A DNA stretch of 64,000 bases from assembly GCF_001699815.1 (NCBI RefSeq), contig NZ_MCGB01000057.1, positions 372,001 to 436,000 of the forward strand, in the 5' to 3' direction. The position numbers and the translations under genes were made by a program. This document shows, in pieces, positions 51,187 through 59,684 of the stretch. The notes below the pieces were generated by a model. That model searched no databases. It was given only the letters and a program-made list of their open reading frames with translations, and was not told the origin of the DNA. How positions within the stretch are numbered: position 1 is the stretch's first letter; each line of letters opens with the position of its first letter. Source of the stretch: Ralstonia pickettii (GTDB lineage Bacteria; Pseudomonadota; Gammaproteobacteria; Burkholderiales; Burkholderiaceae).

Positions 51187-52446
51187 TCACTGCACGAAGG
51201 CGCCCACGGTGAAGTACGGGTTCTTCGTATCGCTCATGTCCAGGAAGCCGAAGGTCTTGCCGGTGAAGATCAGCTTGCCCGTCGGGGCCGAGCCGGCCGG
51301 CGCGCTGGTCTGCGTGGTCCGGATCACGCCCGGGACGGTCTGCGTGAAATCCAGGTTCAGCGGTCGCGCCAGCGCTGCCTGCGACGCGTTGAACGGATCG
51401 AGCATCGTGGCCTGCGCGCCCACCAGCGCCGTGGCACGGTAGTTGAACGTGCTGTCCACACCGGTGTATTCGCCGTCTTGCGAGCCCTGCGCGATGTTGC
51501 CGACCGGTGCCATGATCGAAATGCCGGACTCGTCGTCTGCCACCGGCGGGCCGGCCGTCAAGTCGGAATTGGCCGCACCGACGCGAATGAAGATCGGCAC
51601 GAGCTGGCCATACAGCTTGCCCACGATCATCACGCCCTTGCCCGCCTTGGCCGGATCGAGCGACGACACGGTTGCCGGCACCTGCGGCTGATAGTTCAGC
51701 GTGGTGAAGGCCGGCGCGTCGCCGCGCAGCGTCAGCTTCTGGTTGACCGTCGCGCTTGACGTCAGGCAGGCTCCGCCGTTCTTCACGCCCAGGTTGTCGC
51801 ACTCGGTGTAGGTGCCGTCCGCGTTGATGGTGAAACGCGCATCGACCGCCTGCTGCGAGAAGTTCTGCGACGGCACCTGGTGGTAGCCGAGCTGGTTGTA
51901 GTTGCCGGCAATCTTGGTCAGATCGGTCTCGGTGTTCGAGAAGCTGATGAACGGGTAATACGGGAACGTGGTCTGCGCAATCTTGCCCACGCCGACAATG
52001 CCGTCGAACTGGATCGTCGCCCCCGGAATCGTGCCGCCCAGCACGCCTAGCCCCAGGAAGAACCGCGCCGGACGGCTCGGATCAAGGCTCGCGTTGTTCA
52101 GGCGGAACGCGCACTGGTTCAGCTTCTCGGTCGGCAGCGCCGTCTCTTGCGTGAGCGTGCCGGTCTGCACGTTGTTGGGCGCCGTATCGCGCGTGGGCGC
52201 CACAGTGCCAGTCTTGACCGGAATCGGCGAGGCCAGATACGTGATCTGGTACGTCATCTTCGTCGTATCGAGCTGAACCTTCACGAGTTCACCTGAGCCC
52301 GACCCGCCGGTGAACACGGTGTTGTAGTCGATGGCCTGCGGACACAGGCGCTGGATCACCGGGGGCGGCGGATCATCGCCGCCTCCTCCGCACGCTGTCA
52401 CCATCGGTGCGCACGCGAGCACGACCAACCATTTACGCCATTGCAT
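51187..52446 (-). CDS. DUF2957 lipoprotein A
   Basis: 419-residue predicted lipoprotein: MQWRKWLVVLACAPMVTACG has a lipobox VTAC with Cys19, then a Gly/Asp/Pro linker. The body is rich in Gly, Thr and Asn, as in beta-rich surface proteins, and contains TGGSGSGELVKVQLDTTKMT near the N-terminus. The chain ends FTVGAFVQ, shared with its upstream paralogue. DUF2957 proteins are known mainly from Ralstonia/Cupriavidus/Burkholderia; no function is established. GGAGGAGAC lies before the ATG at 52446; an earlier in-frame ATG at 52461 is less likely because the signal sequence starts at MQW. Confidence 0.85.
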   Translation of the reverse strand: MQWRKWLVVLACAPMVTACGGGGDDPPPPVIQRLCPQAIDYNTVFTGGSGSGELVKVQLDTTKMTYQITYLASPIPVKTGTVAPTRDTAPNNVQTGTLTQETALPTEKLNQCAFRLNNASLDPSRPARFFLGLGVLGGTIPGATIQFDGIVGVGKIAQTTFPYYPFISFSNTETDLTKIAGNYNQLGYHQVPSQNFSQQAVDARFTINADGTYTECDNLGVKNGGACLTSSATVNQKLTLRGDAPAFTTLNYQPQVPATVSSLDPAKAGKGVMIVGKLYGQLVPIFIRVGAANSDLTAGPPVADDESGISIMAPVGNIAQGSQDGEYTGVDSTFNYRATALVGAQATMLDPFNASQAALARPLNLDFTQTVPGVIRTTQTSAPAGSAPTGKLIFTGKTFGFLDMSDTKNPYFTVGAFVQ

Positions 52447-52532
52447 TTGCGTCTCCTCCATGTTGTTGTTCAGAGGTGGCGGCGCACACATTGCGCATGC
52501 CGCCACCGGATGTGCTTGCATTGATGCGCGCC

Positions 52533-54128
52533 TCACTGGACAAATGCGCCGACCGTGAAGAACGGGTTGTACTTGTTGTTGTTCATGAGCATCGCGTACA
52601 CGTTGCCCACCTTGACGGCCACGCCGGTGTCGCCGGCCTTGAACAACGCGACGTTGCCGCTGGCGCCTTGCGCGTTGAAGTCGTTCTGCGCGGTCACGAT
52701 CAGCTTGCCCGGCGCGCTTTGCGTGTAGTCGAGCCCGAACTGCGCTGTCACACGCGATGTGAGCGGGTTGATGAAGGCCGCGGTGCCGTTCTGGAACAAC
52801 GTGGATGTGTAGTTGGCGGCGAGTGTCGACACGGCCGTCCCGTCGCTGCAGTTGCCGGCATTGGCGTGGAAGAAGCCCCCACTAAAGGAGCCGGACAGTT
52901 CCGGATGATCAACCGTAGCGTTCAAGCCGTTGCCGCTGGCGGGCGCACCACTCGGGCCATTGTTGGTGACCACGCCGCAAGCCGAGCCGCTGGTCGCCCC
53001 AACGAAACCGCCCTTGAGCGCATTGGCCGGGATCGCCGTTGCTGGCGAGAGGATCGAGATGCCGATCTGGTCATCCGCCACCGAAGCCAGCAGGTTTGTC
53101 GGATCGCTGTGCGAATAGCCAACACGGATCACCACCGGCACGACCTGTCCGTTGAGCTTGCCGGCAATCAGAATGCCCTTGGCCTGGCTCGGCGCCAGCA
53201 GCACCAGCGGTGAGACCTGGCCGACATACGGATACGGCACGTTGCTGCTGGTCGGGTTGCTGACAAACACGTTGTCCTGCGAGCCATCGGTGTTCTGACG
53301 CAGCGTCCAGGGCGTGCCCGTCGTGTGGCAGGAATAGTCGATCCCTTCGGCCGTACACGAGCCGTCCGCTTTTAACGTTTGCGTCCAGTTGACGGCATCG
53401 GGCTGCCAGCCTTGCGGCGCCGAGGTTTGGTTGCCCGAACCCGTGGGCGTGACATGCACGCCGACCTGGTTGTAGCGCCCCGCGACCTGCGAGAAATCCG
53501 TCACCGTCTCGGAGAAGCCCAGGAACGGATAGAAATCGAACGTTCGCGACGGCACTGCGCCAATCACGACGCCCGGAATCGGCTGGATGCCTGCGAACTG
53601 GATGGTCGCCCCCGGGATGCCGCCCCCCACGATGCCCTGACCGACAAACAGCATCGGCGGATCCTGCGGATTGACGGTGATCGCGTAGCTGTTGTCCGCC
53701 GTCTTGCCCGACTGCAGCACGAAAGCGCAGCGGTTCTGCTCGCGGGTCGGTAAGTTGGCCGGATGCACGAACGTACCGTCGATGATCAATCCCTTGCGCG
53801 TCGTATTGACCTGGCCCGCCGAGGTCGGCACCGACGACTCGAGGAACTGCATCTGGTACGTGTTCTTGCTCGTGTCGAACTTGACCTTGATGTACTCGCC
53901 GCTACCCGAGCCGCCGGTGTACGTAGTCGTGTAGTCCAGCGCCGCCGGGCACAGACTGGTTGGCGTGCTGGGCGTGGTGTTCGCTCCGCTAGGCGGACAA
54001 GAACTCCCCGAACACTGCGCAACATCCGACGAGCCGGGGTCGTCTGCCCCGCCGCACCCGCCAATGAACGGCATTGCAACTATGCAACTGGTTGCCATGA
54101 CAACAAAAAGATGACGTCGACTACCCAT
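52533..54128 (-). CDS. DUF2957 lipoprotein B
   Basis: 531-residue paralogue of the next gene and first of the surface cluster. The signal peptide ends FIGGC with Cys25, followed by a Ser/Pro/Thr linker with a few cysteines (QCSGSSCPPSG) absent from copy A. The shared part begins LCPAALDYTTTYTGGSGSGE and ends FFTVGAFVQ. It is about 110 residues longer than copy A, mostly from an internal Gly/Ser/Asn-rich insertion after the middle. The leader before its ATG (AACATGAGGAGACAACC) resembles that before copy A, so the duplication included the ribosome-binding region. Role unknown; probably outer-membrane surface or periplasmic. Confidence 0.85.
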   Translation of the reverse strand: MGSRRHLFVVMATSCIVAMPFIGGCGGADDPGSSDVAQCSGSSCPPSGANTTPSTPTSLCPAALDYTTTYTGGSGSGEYIKVKFDTSKNTYQMQFLESSVPTSAGQVNTTRKGLIIDGTFVHPANLPTREQNRCAFVLQSGKTADNSYAITVNPQDPPMLFVGQGIVGGGIPGATIQFAGIQPIPGVVIGAVPSRTFDFYPFLGFSETVTDFSQVAGRYNQVGVHVTPTGSGNQTSAPQGWQPDAVNWTQTLKADGSCTAEGIDYSCHTTGTPWTLRQNTDGSQDNVFVSNPTSSNVPYPYVGQVSPLVLLAPSQAKGILIAGKLNGQVVPVVIRVGYSHSDPTNLLASVADDQIGISILSPATAIPANALKGGFVGATSGSACGVVTNNGPSGAPASGNGLNATVDHPELSGSFSGGFFHANAGNCSDGTAVSTLAANYTSTLFQNGTAAFINPLTSRVTAQFGLDYTQSAPGKLIVTAQNDFNAQGASGNVALFKAGDTGVAVKVGNVYAMLMNNNKYNPFFTVGAFVQ

Positions 54129-54873: not shown

Positions 54874-54961
54874 TGGTGGGCCGGGTGGGATTCGAACCCA
54901 CGGTGTCCTTTCGGAGGCGGATTATGAGTCCGCTGCCTGCAACCAGCACGGCGTCCGGCCC
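54874..54961 (-). tRNA. tRNA with CAU anticodon on a class II (long variable arm) body
   Basis: An 88-nt cloverleaf read on the minus strand: perfect 7-bp acceptor GGGCCGG/CCGGCCC, anticodon arm GCGGA-CTCATAA-TCCGC (anticodon CAU), T arm GTGGG-TTCGAAT-CCCAC, discriminator A and encoded CCA. The D arm GCC-GTGCTGGTTGCA-GGC and the 15-nt variable region with TCC-GAAA-GGA look like tRNA(Ser)/class II tRNAs, not like Met or Ile2. Position 8 is A instead of the near-universal U. The anticodon loop CTCATAA equals that of tRNA(Ile2) and initiator tRNA. Automatic tools would probably call it Met or Ile2; the amino acid cannot be assigned here. It starts right after the rpoD terminator. Confidence 0.85.
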
Positions 54962-54972
54962 TGTAAAACGAG

Positions 54973-55001
54973 AAAAAAAGAGACCCGGCGCTTAGGCCGG
55001 G
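54973..55001 (-). terminator. rpoD terminator
   Basis: CCCGGC (54984-54989) pairs with GCCGGG (54996-55001); on the minus strand TCTC and seven T follow (complement of 54973-54979). It lies 69 bp after the rpoD stop and only 12 bp before the tRNA gene. Confidence 0.8.
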
Positions 55002-55069
55002 CCCGATGCAGGATTTTACCTGAAAGTGGGCGCGAGCCCACTCGGAAAATCGCCTGCTTCGCTACAGGA

Positions 55070-57703
55070 TCAGCTTCCCTCGAGGAAGCTCTTCAGCTTG
55101 TCAGAGCGGCTCGGATGGCGCAGCTTGCGCAGTGCCTTCGCTTCGATCTGACGGATACGCTCGCGGGTCACGTCGAACTGCTTGCCGACTTCTTCCAGCG
55201 TGTGGTCGGTGCTCATCTCGATACCAAAACGCATGCGCAGCACCTTGGCTTCGCGCGGCGTCAGCGAATCGAGCACGTCCTTCACCACGCCGCGCATGGA
55301 GCCATGCAGCGCCGCTTCGGCCGGGGCCAGCGTGTTCGTGTCCTCGATGAAATCGCCCAGATGGGAGTCGTCGTCGTCACCGATCGGCGTTTCCATGGAG
55401 ATCGGCTCCTTCGCGATCTTCATGATCTTGCGGATCTTGTCTTCCGGCATCTCCATCTTCTCGGCCAGCGTTGCCGGATCCGGCTCGTTGCCGGTTTCCT
55501 GCAGGATCTGACGCGAGATGCGGTTCATCTTGTTGATCGTCTCGATCATGTGCACCGGAATACGGATGGTGCGCGCCTGATCGGCGATCGAACGCGTAAT
55601 GGCCTGACGGATCCACCACGTGGCGTACGTCGAGAACTTGTAGCCGCGACGGTATTCGAACTTGTCCACCGCCTTCATCAGGCCGATGTTGCCTTCCTGG
55701 ATCAGGTCGAGGAACTGCAGACCGCGGTTCGTGTACTTCTTGGCGATCGAGATCACCAGACGCAGGTTGGCCTCGGTCATCTCGCGCTTGGCCTCACGGG
55801 CGCGGCGCTCGCCTTCCGACATCTTGCGGTTGACGTCCTTCAGCTCGGTCAGCGGCAGCACCACGCGTGCCTGCAGGTCGATCAGCTTTTGCTGCAGTTC
55901 GTGCACGGCCGGCACGTTGCGCTCGACGATGGTGCTGTACGGCTTGCCGTCGGCCACCACGGTCTCGATCCACTTCAGGTTGGTCTCGTTGCCCGGGAAG
56001 CGCGCAACGAAGTCGCTGCGCGGCATGCCGCACTTGTCCACCACGATGTTCAGGATGGCGCGTTCGAGCTTGCGCACTTCGTCCACCTGGCCGCGCAGCG
56101 TGTCGCACAGGCGCTCGACGTTGCGTGCCGTGAAGCGGATCGTCATCAGTTCGGCCTGGATGGCTTCCTGCGCCTTCACGTAAGGCTTGGACTTGTAGCC
56201 TTCCTTCTCGAACGCACGGCGCATCTTGTCGAACTGCTCGCCGATCACACCAAACTTGAGCAGCGCAGCCTGCTTGAGCTCTTCGAGTTGACGGGCCGAA
56301 GCTGCGGCAGCGCCGGCACCTTCATCGTCCTCGTCTTCCTCTTCGTCGCCCTCTTCTTCGGCTTCCTCTTCCTCGAATTCCTCTTCTTCCTCAGCAGCAG
56401 CGGCTGCATCGGCTTCAGCGTTCGGATCGATCAAGCCATCGATGTACTCGTCGATCTTGGCTTCGTCGTTGGCAACGCGCTCGCCCATGGCGAGGATTTC
56501 GGAGATGGTGACCGGGCAGGCCGAGATGGCCATGACCATGTCCTTCAGGCCGGCTTCGATGCGCTTGGCGATCACGATTTCGCCTTCGCGCGTCAGCAGC
56601 TCGACCGTGCCCATTTCGCGCATGTACATGCGCACCGGGTCGGTCGTGCGGCCGAATTCGGAGTCAACCGTCGACAGCGCGGCTTCAGCTTCTTCTTCAG
56701 CTTCCTCTTCCGTGGTCACGGAAGGTGCGTTGTCGTTCAGGAGCAGCGTTTCGGCGTCCGGCGCCTGCTCGTACACGGCAACGCCGATGTCGTTGAGCGT
56801 GGCAACCAACGTTTCCAGCGACTCCACATCGACCATGTCGTCGGGGAGGTGGTCGTTGATTTCGGCGTAGGTCAGGTAGCCGCGCGATTTGCCCAGCTTG
56901 ATCAGCGCCTTGAGCTTCTGGCGGCGGGCCTCAAGCTCTTCTTCCGAACCGCCTTGCTGCGAGGCAGCGAATTCCTTGAGCAGGGCTTTTTCCTTGGCCT
57001 TGCGGTCACGGGCCTTCAGCTTTTCGGTTTTCGGTGCCGGAGCGGCGGGGGTGTCAAATTCTTCAGTCACGTCCGTGCTGCTGTCGTCTGCCTGCGTCTC
57101 TGCCTTGGGCTTGCGGCCGCGCTTCTTGGGCTCGGCTGCTGCCTCGGCGCGGGGCGCGGGAGGAGTTGTGGGGGTGGCCTCTGCCTGGGCGGTGCGCTTG
57201 GTGTCTTCCGCGGCCGCCTTGGCTGGCTTGGCTGCGGTGTTGGTACGAGCGGTACCCGTCTTGGTTGCGCTTGCGCTGGCAGGGGTCTGCTTGCTCTCGA
57301 CTTCGGTAACTTTCGATTTCGCCACGGTGGTTGTCTTGCCCTTGAGTGCGACGGAAGCGGCTGTGCCGCCAGGTCTGGCGCTCGTGCTCATCGACGTCGA
57401 GACCTTGCCTGAGGTTGAAGATTGGATCGCGCCCTTTGTGCGCGCTGTCGGTTTGACAGTCTTGGCGGCGACGGCGATATCGGCGGTCTGGCGCGGCTGG
57501 GTTTTCCCCGTCTTTGCCGGCACAGTGGCCTTCACCCCTGTCGATCCTGCCTGCCCCATATGGATCCGACCATTTGCGACTTTCGCCGTTCCCGCTGGTG
57601 GCTTTCCTCCTCCCGAGCCGCGCGCCGATGAGGATCGCTTGGCAGAAACAGAAGCAGGACTGGCCTTGGAACCGGCCTTCGCGGAGGTCTTCACCTTCAC
57701 CAT
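55070..57703 (-). CDS. rpoD: RNA polymerase primary sigma factor RpoD
   Basis: 877-residue sigma-70, far longer than the E. coli protein (613). Residues 1 to about 255 are a Lys/Ala/Thr/Ser-rich low-complexity extension that includes [11 protein letters not shown] (AT-hook-like) at about 192-202. Region 1.1 follows ([20 protein letters not shown]), then a strongly acidic Glu/Asp run inside the non-conserved region, region 2 with [20 protein letters not shown], region 3, and region 4.2 with [20 protein letters not shown]. The ATG at 57703 ([11 protein letters not shown]) is preferred to an earlier in-frame one. dnaG lies 169 bp upstream in the same direction. Essential core factor. Confidence 0.97.
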
Positions 57704-57872
57704 GGGCACGCTCACTCCCCCAAAAATGGGAAAAAGGACTTGCAATCCAAACCGGCTATTCTAGCACGCCAGACCAAGCCGGTCTAAACGAAAGTCGGGT
57801 TTTCGCCTGAAAAATCAAGGGGCTACCCGCAATTGCCCGCCCCGCTTGGAGCTTGCCTCTGCGGCGCATGCG

Positions 57873-59684
57873 CTACACGAGCTGTCGGCGGCGGCTGATT
57901 TCGCCCACCAGCCAGCGCATGCGCTCCTTGTCGTCGTCGCCGGCATGGCCGGCTTCCATCTTGCGCTGCAACATCTCCAGCTCGCGCTTGAGCGGCTCGG
58001 CGAGCATCTTTTGTACGGCAGTATCGAATTCGGACATGGCCGGCTCCAGTTCGATGTCGTCCTGGAGCACAGCCGTGCGCAGCCCGGCAAAGGCCTCGGC
58101 ATAGGGCGTCTGCCCCAAGCGCTCAACAAAGGCGCCGAAGTGCACTTCCGGACCCACAGCATCGCATTCGCCCAGCAGCGCCGCCAATACCTCACCTTGG
58201 GGCAATTGCGGCGCTGTCAACTGGGCGCGGGCATCGGCGTCGAGCCGAGCGGCCAGCGCGGGATAGCGCATCAGCAGGCGCAACACCTTCTGCTCAAGCG
58301 CCGTAGGTGCGGTGCGCGCCACGCGGGGCCGCTTTTGCGTCATGCGGCCCGCTTGGGCCGGGTCGCTGCGAAGGCCACATAGCGCTTCGATGTCGGCAGG
58401 CGTGGTGCCTGTCATGTCGGCCAGGCCGCGCACAATCTGCAGGCGCAGGCCGCCGGCGGGCATGGCGCTCAGCAGCGGCTTGGCCTCGTATTGGGCGCGG
58501 GCACGGCCCTCGGGTTGACGCAGGTCGAGATCTTCGGTCACCGCCTGGAGCAGGAAGCGCGACAGCGGCATCGCGTTGTGCACTTCACGGGCGAAGGCCT
58601 CGGTGCCCTCTTCGCGCACGAAGCTGTCCGGATCGTGCTCGGCGGGCAGGAAGAGGAACTTGATGGTCTTGTTGTCGGTGGCGTGCGGCAGGCAGGCTTC
58701 GAGCGCACGACGTGCGGCGCGGCGCCCGGCGCTATCTCCATCAAACGAGAAGATGACAGTGTCGACCTGCCGCAGCAGCTTCTGCACGTGAGTCGGCGTG
58801 CACGCCGTGCCCAGCGTGGCCACCGCATTGGCAAACCCCAGCTGCGCCAGCGCGACGACGTCCATATAGCCTTCCACGACCAGCACATAGTCGAACTCGC
58901 GGATGGCGTTGCGTGCCTCGAACAGCCCGTACAGCTCGGTGCCCTTGCTGAACAGCGGCGTTTCGGGGGAGTTGAGATATTTCGGCTCGCCTTGCCCCAG
59001 CACCCGGCCGCCAAAGCCGATCACCACGCCTTTGGTATTGCGGATGGGGAACATGATGCGATCGCGGAAGCGGTCGTAGCGGCGGTGCGAGCCATCGGCG
59101 CCGGTCTTCTCGCTTTCAATGACGAGGCCGGCTTCGATGAGCGGTGCGGCAGTGGCGTCTTCGCGGTATGGGCCGAACACGGCTTCGAGCGATTGCCAAT
59201 CGTCCGGCGCATAGCCGAGGCCGAAGTGTGCGGCGATCTCGCCCGTCAGGCCGCGGCCTTTGAGGTATTGGATGGCATTGGGGGCGCTGCGCAATTGCTT
59301 GCGGTAGTGGTCGCAGGCACGGGCCATGACGTCGCCGAGTGCGACGGTCTTGGCTTGCTGCTCCGCACGCGCGGCGGGCGGCAGGCCACCGCGCTCTTCG
59401 GGCACCACCATGCCCACGGACTGCGCAAGATCCTTGATGGCCTCGACGTACGATTGCCCGGAAAACTCCATCAGGAAGCCGATGGCCGACCCATGCGCGC
59501 CGCAGCCGAAGCAGTGATAGAACTGCTTGGTGGGCGACACCGAGAACGACGGCGACTTCTCGTTATGGAAGGGGCACAGCCCCATGAAATTGGCGCCGCC
59601 CTTCTTCAACTGCACGTAACGGCCCACCACGTCGACGATATCGACGCGGTTGAGCAGATCGTCAATGAACGGCTGCGGGATCAC
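57873..59684 (-). CDS. dnaG: DNA primase
   Basis: 603-residue primase that makes RNA primers at the fork. The N-terminal zinc finger uses Cys37, His40, Cys58 and Cys61 (CPFHNEKSPSFSVSP then FYHCFGCGAHG). The catalytic TOPRIM core has VVEGYMDVVAL and the acidic FSFDGDSAGRRA. The C-terminal 150 residues form the DnaB-interaction domain. It lies between yqeY and rpoD, as in the macromolecular-synthesis operon. Confidence 0.97.
   Translation of the reverse strand: MIPQPFIDDLLNRVDIVDVVGRYVQLKKGGANFMGLCPFHNEKSPSFSVSPTKQFYHCFGCGAHGSAIGFLMEFSGQSYVEAIKDLAQSVGMVVPEERGGLPPAARAEQQAKTVALGDVMARACDHYRKQLRSAPNAIQYLKGRGLTGEIAAHFGLGYAPDDWQSLEAVFGPYREDATAAPLIEAGLVIESEKTGADGSHRRYDRFRDRIMFPIRNTKGVVIGFGGRVLGQGEPKYLNSPETPLFSKGTELYGLFEARNAIREFDYVLVVEGYMDVVALAQLGFANAVATLGTACTPTHVQKLLRQVDTVIFSFDGDSAGRRAARRALEACLPHATDNKTIKFLFLPAEHDPDSFVREEGTEAFAREVHNAMPLSRFLLQAVTEDLDLRQPEGRARAQYEAKPLLSAMPAGGLRLQIVRGLADMTGTTPADIEALCGLRSDPAQAGRMTQKRPRVARTAPTALEQKVLRLLMRYPALAARLDADARAQLTAPQLPQGEVLAALLGECDAVGPEVHFGAFVERLGQTPYAEAFAGLRTAVLQDDIELEPAMSEFDTAVQKMLAEPLKRELEMLQRKMEAGHAGDDDKERMRWLVGEISRRRQLV

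Follow-up and report, generated by a model that had tools for sequence, protein, structure and literature searches.

The window analysed here, 64,000 nucleotides (nt) of the Ralstonia pickettii contig NZ_MCGB01000057.1, carries an 88-nt class II transfer RNA (tRNA) gene with a CAU anticodon and an encoded CCA end at 54874..54961 on the minus strand, starting 108 nt past the end of the rpoD open reading frame (ORF). With a probability of about 0.89, we interpret it as a class II tRNA-Ile2 that would be converted by TilS into a lysidine-bearing decoder of AUA codons. The gene has an intact cloverleaf with a covarying long variable arm, occupies the position in which relatives carry class I tRNA-Ile2, and is the only candidate for AUA decoding found within the searches made.

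Architecture of the class II gene

ARAGORN labelled 54874..54961 (minus strand, as are all features below) as tRNA-Met(cat), the sole tRNA called in the window. The Rfam model RF00005 matches it over the full length with 46.7 bits (E 2.5e-8), the third lowest score among the 47 tRNA matches of the genome, and a covariance model built from eight class II sequences, the window gene itself among them, gives 119.4 bits. The minimum-energy fold is a 7/5 cloverleaf with a 3-bp UCC-GAAA-GGA variable arm at -42.6 kcal/mol (z -3.23; 0/200 shuffles reach the same energy).

The 5' acceptor strand GGGCCGG (54955..54961) provides G3:C70, C4:G69 and C5:G68, and is followed by A8, C9 and a D arm (54935..54954) that consists of a 3-bp stem and a large loop with U14, G15, G18, G19 and U20a. 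The usual U8-A14 combination is thus reversed to A8 and U14. The anticodon arm GCGGA-CTCATAA-TCCGC (54917..54933) shares 16 of its 17 nt with the class I Ile2 genes of congeners and presents the anticodon CAU at 54924..54926, where C34 is the predicted lysidine site. The 15-nt variable region (54902..54916) forms the stem TCC/GGA closed by the loop GAAA, and the T arm spans 54885..54901, with 22 nt of the T-arm region identical to tRNA-Ser(CGA). Unlike in initiator tRNA, in which C1 and A72 are unpaired, G1-C72 is paired.

The initial annotation, made from the sequence without database searches, had described a long-arm CAU tRNA with A at position 8, functional in appearance and unlike standard Met, fMet or Ile2 tRNAs. 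Its coordinates, strand and anatomy agree with ARAGORN, RF00005 and the fold; position 8 is indeed A, with U14 opposite, and the fold and covariation support the functional appearance. Its description of the tRNA as serine-like proved superficial: despite the 22 nt shared with tRNA-Ser(CGA), 36 nt match a class I tRNA-Ile2 instead (see below).

Covariation and conservation

From 212 class II instances (overlapping fetches included), 37 distinct sequences were obtained; after removal of an 86-nt sequence and of another with a CTA end, 35 were aligned. The selecting pattern left just two positions free between 6 and ~40, such that the D arm could not vary and the variable and T arms were free to do so. 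All three variable-arm pairs change on both sides with 100% pairing, giving the types UCC/GGA (18), GGA/UCC (16) and UCA/UGA (1). Paired cells amount to 99.6% versus 90.7% in shuffles, and the covariation score to 0.208 versus 0.067, neither value being attained in any of 500 shuffles. Two other counts in this set were not above chance: five pairs changed on both sides (reached by 361/500 shuffles), and six further pair types (498/500).

A pattern-free set of 50 loci, selected by the covariance model, yielded 47 CAU copies, 25 of them distinct. A8 and U14 are present in 24 of the 25, the exception being a rearranged copy, and the variable arm is UCC/GGA in 13, GGA/UCC in 10, GGA/UUC in one and out of register in one. 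Within Ralstonia, the gene is 99-100% identical across 10 genomes. Fold, covariation and conservation together rule out a chance match or a misfolded reading. In Ralstonia genome G005, the class II gene (L056, 1504-1591) ends in CTA, not CCA.

A sole candidate for AUA decoding

The own genome of the window (G000) is a draft of 113 contigs, and the congener G009, in two contigs, served as a repeat test. Among the 47 tRNA matches of the own genome, the CAU anticodon occurs in an elongator tRNA-Met (L016), an initiator tRNA-fMet (L023) and the class II gene; none of the 47 has a UAU anticodon, one match (L046) lacking a clear anticodon. The 51 matches of G009 give the same picture, with one Met, two tandem fMet and one class II gene as CAU tRNAs, and no UAU anticodon, again with one match without a clear anticodon.

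A short-loop class I Ile2 was not found in the own genome by pattern or by BLAST with two class I types, a hidden intron-split or 76-nt class I Ile2 gave no match there, and the window holds no class I remnant matching over at least 28 nt. A search with the group I intron model RF00028 was negative in 16 genomes, a weak test given that the model assigns no more than 30-31 bits to two introns of this locus, under its gathering score of 50. TilS was detected over the cut-off in all 14 genomes searched. In the initial annotation, a standard short-loop Ile2 gene counted as evidence against an unusual tRNA; the normal Met and fMet genes are in place, and the short-loop Ile2 was sought in the own genome in vain. 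Two low-scoring matches of the own genome are recorded here, a second tRNA-Cys(gca) (L045, G000:C20:80698-80769) and the tRNA without a clear anticodon (L046, G000:C96:82841-82914); matches labelled alike also exist in G009 (L522, L523).

The meaning of AUA was read from 109 reciprocal best pairs (≥60% identity) of ORFs called by a custom script in 400 kb of G009 (class II) and 1.2 Mb of Ralstonia G006 (class I). Opposite the 20 aligned AUA codons of G009 stand isoleucine (12), valine (4), methionine (2), threonine (1) and phenylalanine (1); leucine, serine or tyrosine stands opposite none. In the reverse control, the 12 AUA codons of G006 face isoleucine (8), valine (2), leucine (1) and methionine (1), and 800 kb more of G006 added just two AUA positions. 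Within these pairs, AUA is more frequent in the class II member (0.50 versus 0.30 per 1000), and over all called ORFs it is less frequent there (1.00 versus 1.69); as the two comparisons run in opposite directions, no trend is claimed.

The slot behind rpoD across genera

In a scan of 398 genomes from the family with the covariance model, 79 genomes have, among the matches listed, a CAU class II gene of at least 100 bits. The 16 Ralstonia genomes comprise 10 with the class II gene, four with a 79-nt and one with a 76-nt class I gene, and G001 (90% complete), in which no Ile2 gene of either class was found. Trinickia (11 genomes) has seven class II genes, three class I genes of 76 nt and one intron-split class I gene, and Paraburkholderia (59 genomes) has 48 class II and 11 intron-split class I genes. 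In the Cupriavidus genus g3 (59 genomes), 14 genomes hold the class II gene, and G413 a degraded relative of it; by BLAST, 13 of these 14 also have a full-length class I gene, and the remaining one, G254, has a split one.

Class I matches (E values up to 3e-11) were absent from the 10 Ralstonia and seven Trinickia genomes with the class II gene, and from 46 of the 48 such Paraburkholderia genomes, a match in G212 being set aside as tRNA-Lys. The 76-nt class I type was absent from all 24 class II genomes in which it was sought, with 3/3 positive controls found. Among 399 genomes from the order, which include members of the family, two tRNA-Leu were the only further class II CAU-model matches at E≤1e-12. 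In phages, 152 records match part of the gene, and the annotated ones among the best 20 of the 152 are tRNA-Lys or tRNA-Asn.

Of 22 loci examined, 19 include rpoD, and in all 19 the Ile2 gene, or its split halves, comes next on the same strand; the other three are the inner and distal parts of an island in G254 and one Cupriavidus plasmid. An exact 36-nt pattern selected 113 class II stretches from named records; in 98 of them, rpoD lies 98-329 nt upstream, the distance being taken from the end of the tblastn match. The remaining 15 are 12 from Cupriavidus (eight with >2 kb upstream and no rpoD) and three from Paraburkholderia whose upstream DNA is too short to judge. In Paraburkholderia xenovorans LB400, a copy is located on NC_007952.1. 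All 11 sampled Paraburkholderia without the class II gene have an intron-split class I gene behind rpoD, and in 12/12 split class I genes at this position an insert of 248-304 nt sits within the anticodon loop. Both inserts tested match the group I intron model RF00028 (E 4e-6 and 2e-6) under its gathering score, at which none of the 12 split loci gives a match; according to the tRNAscan-SE 2.0 paper (PMC8450103), group I introns occur in tRNA-Ile2 of Acidovorax and Burkholderia. In Paraburkholderia G170, two class II matches from the anticodon to the T arm lie 3.65 kb apart (G170:C56:116867 and 120521), perhaps as the result of an element inserted in a class II gene.

Identity determinants and proposed decoding

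According to PMC12514573, TilS depends on C4:G69 and C5:G68, plus G3:C70 for the B. cenocepacia enzyme, for which an 11-nt D-loop is a helper (6% on its own). All three pairs are present in the window gene. The Ile determinants in the PMC9976931 table include A73 and C4-G69, both of which the gene has, and in E. coli also U12-A23 and C29-G41. The CUCAUAA loop, with CAU, A35, U36, A37 and A38, agrees with the anticodon-loop determinants in the same table.

We propose that the gene is expressed as a transcript with a CAU anticodon, that TilS would recognise G3:C70, C4:G69 and C5:G68 together with the anticodon loop and turn C34 into lysidine, and that the modified tRNA would read AUA and be charged by isoleucyl-tRNA synthetase (IleRS). 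The leucyl- and seryl-tRNA synthetases (LeuRS and SerRS) would be blocked, the former by G15-C48, U20a and the reversed A8/U14, and the latter by A73 and C4:G69; the long variable arm may be tolerated because Leu and Ser identity are blocked. The class II gene would thus replace the class I tRNA-Ile2 behind rpoD.

Several observations weigh against this proposal. The AUA sites are less conserved than those of AUC/AUU (60% versus 93-94% Ile), and the sample of 20 codons is small. Paraburkholderia G271 and G402 hold an extra class I gene, located in a Gly-Ser-Ile2 tRNA cluster. The E. coli pairs U12-A23 and C29-G41 are absent, their places being taken by C12-G23 and G29-C41; the congeneric class I Ile2 has U12-A23 but also G29-C41, so the 29-41 pair is not family-defining in Ralstonia. 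In the model structure, a 12-nt D-loop on a 3-bp stem stands in place of the 11-nt loop, and the variable region has 15 nt and a covarying stem in place of the usual short class I loop of 4-5 nt. Six of the 35 distinct relatives carry U5.G68, and one has a 3:70 mismatch. Finally, A73 together with the long arm is a leucylation risk.

Alternative explanations

Charging with leucine or serine on account of the long arm, with AUA at least partly recoded, is very unlikely. The bacterial Leu set in the PMC9976931 table consists of A73, A15-U48, A20a and a large variable region; A73 and the large arm are present in the window gene, but G15-C48 and U20a replace the other two. Of the Ser set in the same table (G73, R4-Y69 and a large variable region), the gene has the large arm, with A73 and C4-G69 instead of the rest. 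The 22 nt shared with tRNA-Ser(CGA) would fit serine, yet none of the 20 aligned AUA codons faces Leu or Ser, the acceptor and T arm equal those of a class I Ile2, and C4:G69 and C5:G68 point to TilS. We consider it still less probable that the gene is an extra elongator tRNA-Met, AUA being read by other means. The ARAGORN label, the CAU anticodon and the 2/20 AUA codons facing Met agree with such a role; the Met pairs U4-A69 and A5-U68 of the table are replaced by C4-G69 and C5-G68, however, a normal elongator Met exists, neither a UAU tRNA nor a class I Ile2 was found, and it is the Ile2 slot that the class II gene occupies.

Equally improbable is a pseudogene, a tRNA-like regulator or a leftover integration site near rpoD. 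The low RF00005 score and the related copies on plasmids and islands, some of which are degraded, might be read in this way, but the stems are intact, the variable arm changes in a compensatory manner at three pairs, the sequence is nearly invariant over 10 Ralstonia genomes, and no other gene was found for the essential function of reading AUA. The initial annotation had itself suggested a mischarging tRNA or a regulatory tRNA-like gene, for which we found no support: the gene is the sole AUA candidate, lies in the Ile2 slot and carries the TilS determinants.

Possible in-place replacement and origin

Between rpoD and the tRNA of the window lies a hairpin with a T-run (54981..55004), which is common to class I and class II Ralstonia. 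Class I G006 and class II G000, G009 and G014 share this upstream hairpin and the farther downstream sequence before the lipoprotein genes, whereas the tRNA and its near flanks differ between G006 and the other three; G012 and G007 share just the upstream part. On a midpoint-rooted rpoD tree of 54 selected loci, the presence of the class II gene requires at least 11 changes, against a mean of 18 and a minimum of 11 in 300 shuffles; five of the changes fall within 26 Paraburkholderia and one within 15 Ralstonia. Repeated replacement of the slot gene is hinted at by this single-gene phylogeny, which we read as no more than a hint, as rpoD is a single marker, linked to the tRNA, and the loci were selected.

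In genus g10, the covariance model also picks up genes of 77 nt, at 62-69 bits (at least 44 among the matches listed). The one gene of this group that was read (L058, 1455-1531, G024) is a 77-nt class I CAU tRNA with A8 behind rpoD. Its first 8 and last 28 nt, 36 nt covering the acceptor, A8, the T arm and CCA, equal those of the window gene, and the D arm, anticodon stem and variable loop differ. We infer from this identity an Ile2 ancestry of the class II acceptor and T arm. A Ser-Ile2 chimera, also considered, was rejected since the g10 class I Ile2 better explains the T arm. The g10 result raised the weight of a chromosomal origin from unlikely to possible, slightly lowered that of the mobile route described below, and slightly raised that of the Ile2 identity (0.88 to 0.89).

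Possibly, the class II gene descends from a chromosomal lineage of class I Ile2 genes and travelled together with rpoD, in which case the copies on plasmids and islands would be secondary; such an origin is compatible with the Ile2 identity. The 8 first and 28 last nt and A8 of the g10 gene behind rpoD, and the two flanks conserved between G006 and class II Ralstonia, argue for such an origin. Against it stand the remaining differences of the g10 gene, with no intermediate step seen, the copies on Cupriavidus plasmids and in the G254 island, and the five or more switches among the 26 chosen Paraburkholderia.

Plasmid and island copies

A plasmid search returned 10 records, nine of them from Cupriavidus, with identities of 90-99%; seven are predicted to be conjugative, and the class II tRNA is present in 5/6 plasmids inspected. 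On the 27.6-kb plasmid of Paraburkholderia sp. SOS3, a tyrosine recombinase gene is accompanied by 58 nt that exactly repeat the 3' part of the class II gene, beginning just before the anticodon loop, a placement that would suit an attP site. Plasmid pHG1 of Cupriavidus necator H16 carries a degraded class I tRNA-Ile2 3' half (L109, 10001-10041) ~4 kb from a class II tRNA.

Cupriavidus G254 has its class I gene behind rpoD interrupted within the anticodon loop; ACTCATAAT stands at both ends, ~48 kb apart. About 180 bp in from the rpoD end, the island in between contains a class II tRNA that is intact, and an integrase-like gene (phrog_1, 8.5e-17) adjoins the other half of the class I gene. The island further contains an IS21-like pair and matches to the models TmtA, DpdE or DISARM-like, and IIG restriction. 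At its two end loci, ARAGORN called no tRNA other than the class II one, which indicates that the class I gene is not restored. The case is a single genome, and BLAST of the sequence beyond the distal island end against normal Cupriavidus flanks gave no match that would reveal the empty site.

These arrangements could reflect a mobile rescue tRNA, a scenario that we hold doubtful though conceivable. Elements entering the anticodon loop would destroy the sole, essential Ile2 gene of the host, bring along a TilS-compatible substitute of different structure and become hard to lose, and the substitute would outlast the decayed element; the window would then be the end state and G254 an intermediate. 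Further relatives of the scaffold occur in Cupriavidus: L143 (G349:C3:166615-166702) combines U8 and a mismatch in the acceptor with a CTA (amber) anticodon, and the degraded copy of G413 (L146) is similar to it. L147 (G378:C26:36502-36587) is a chimeric tRNA with a CGT anticodon, a class I-like 5' half and a class II-like 3' half, and could be the product of an integration event.

Neighbouring features

Upstream of the tRNA and on the same strand lie rpoD (55070..57745, longest ORF with a putative start codon) and dnaG (57873..59684), a member of the conserved rpoD neighbourhood. The hairpin at 54981..55004 may be the rpoD terminator or a tRNA leader; it is preceded by a TAAAAT box, and no sigma-70-type site was called there. 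After the tRNA, 51187..54128 encodes two paralogous proteins, ~33% identical in BLAST pieces. The same pair follows the tRNA in G009, G014, G006 and G007, and is absent from the G012 stretch examined.

Comparison with known tRNAs and islands

In the textbook view, the long-arm tRNAs of bacteria are those for Ser, Leu, Tyr and Sec. In the literature searched, which covered neither subscription papers nor tRNA databases, no description of a class II tRNA-Ile2 was found; such a gene may be listed somewhere without comment. If our interpretation is right, the gene is an exception to the Ser/Leu/Tyr/Sec rule, serving an essential codon in three or more genera, and offers a natural test of how IleRS, TilS, LeuRS and SerRS discriminate tRNA shapes. 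It would also mean that the slot of an essential tRNA can be taken by a structurally different one, and that the tRNA-Met label given by ARAGORN to class II Ile2 genes needs correction.

The window gene shares with class I tRNA-Ile2 the CAU anticodon in the CTCATAA loop, A73, the pairs G3:C70, C4:G69 and C5:G68 and the slot behind rpoD, and with the g10 class I gene also the acceptor, A8 and T arm; it differs in its stemmed 15-nt variable region, U14, C12-G23 and D arm. With bacterial tRNA-Ser, -Leu and -Tyr it has in common the stemmed long variable arm, and with tRNA-Ser(CGA) the 22 T-arm nt, but it carries CAU and lacks G73 (Ser), A15-U48 and A20a (Leu), and G34 and U35 (Tyr). A long arm combined with an anticodon outside Ser, Leu and Tyr is also found in the allo-tRNAs and selC* tRNAs of PMC7609411. 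The allo-tRNAs have longer acceptor domains (8/4 or 9/3), whereas the window gene is of the 7/5 type and fills the position of an essential gene; the selC* tRNAs likewise have longer acceptor stems. The G254 island resembles the Islander islands of PMC4383910 in its integrase-like gene and in interrupting the tRNA gene at the anticodon loop. In the Islander islands, an attP fragment makes the interrupted gene whole again, whereas the G254 island leaves the class I gene in two parts and has a complete class II gene inside.
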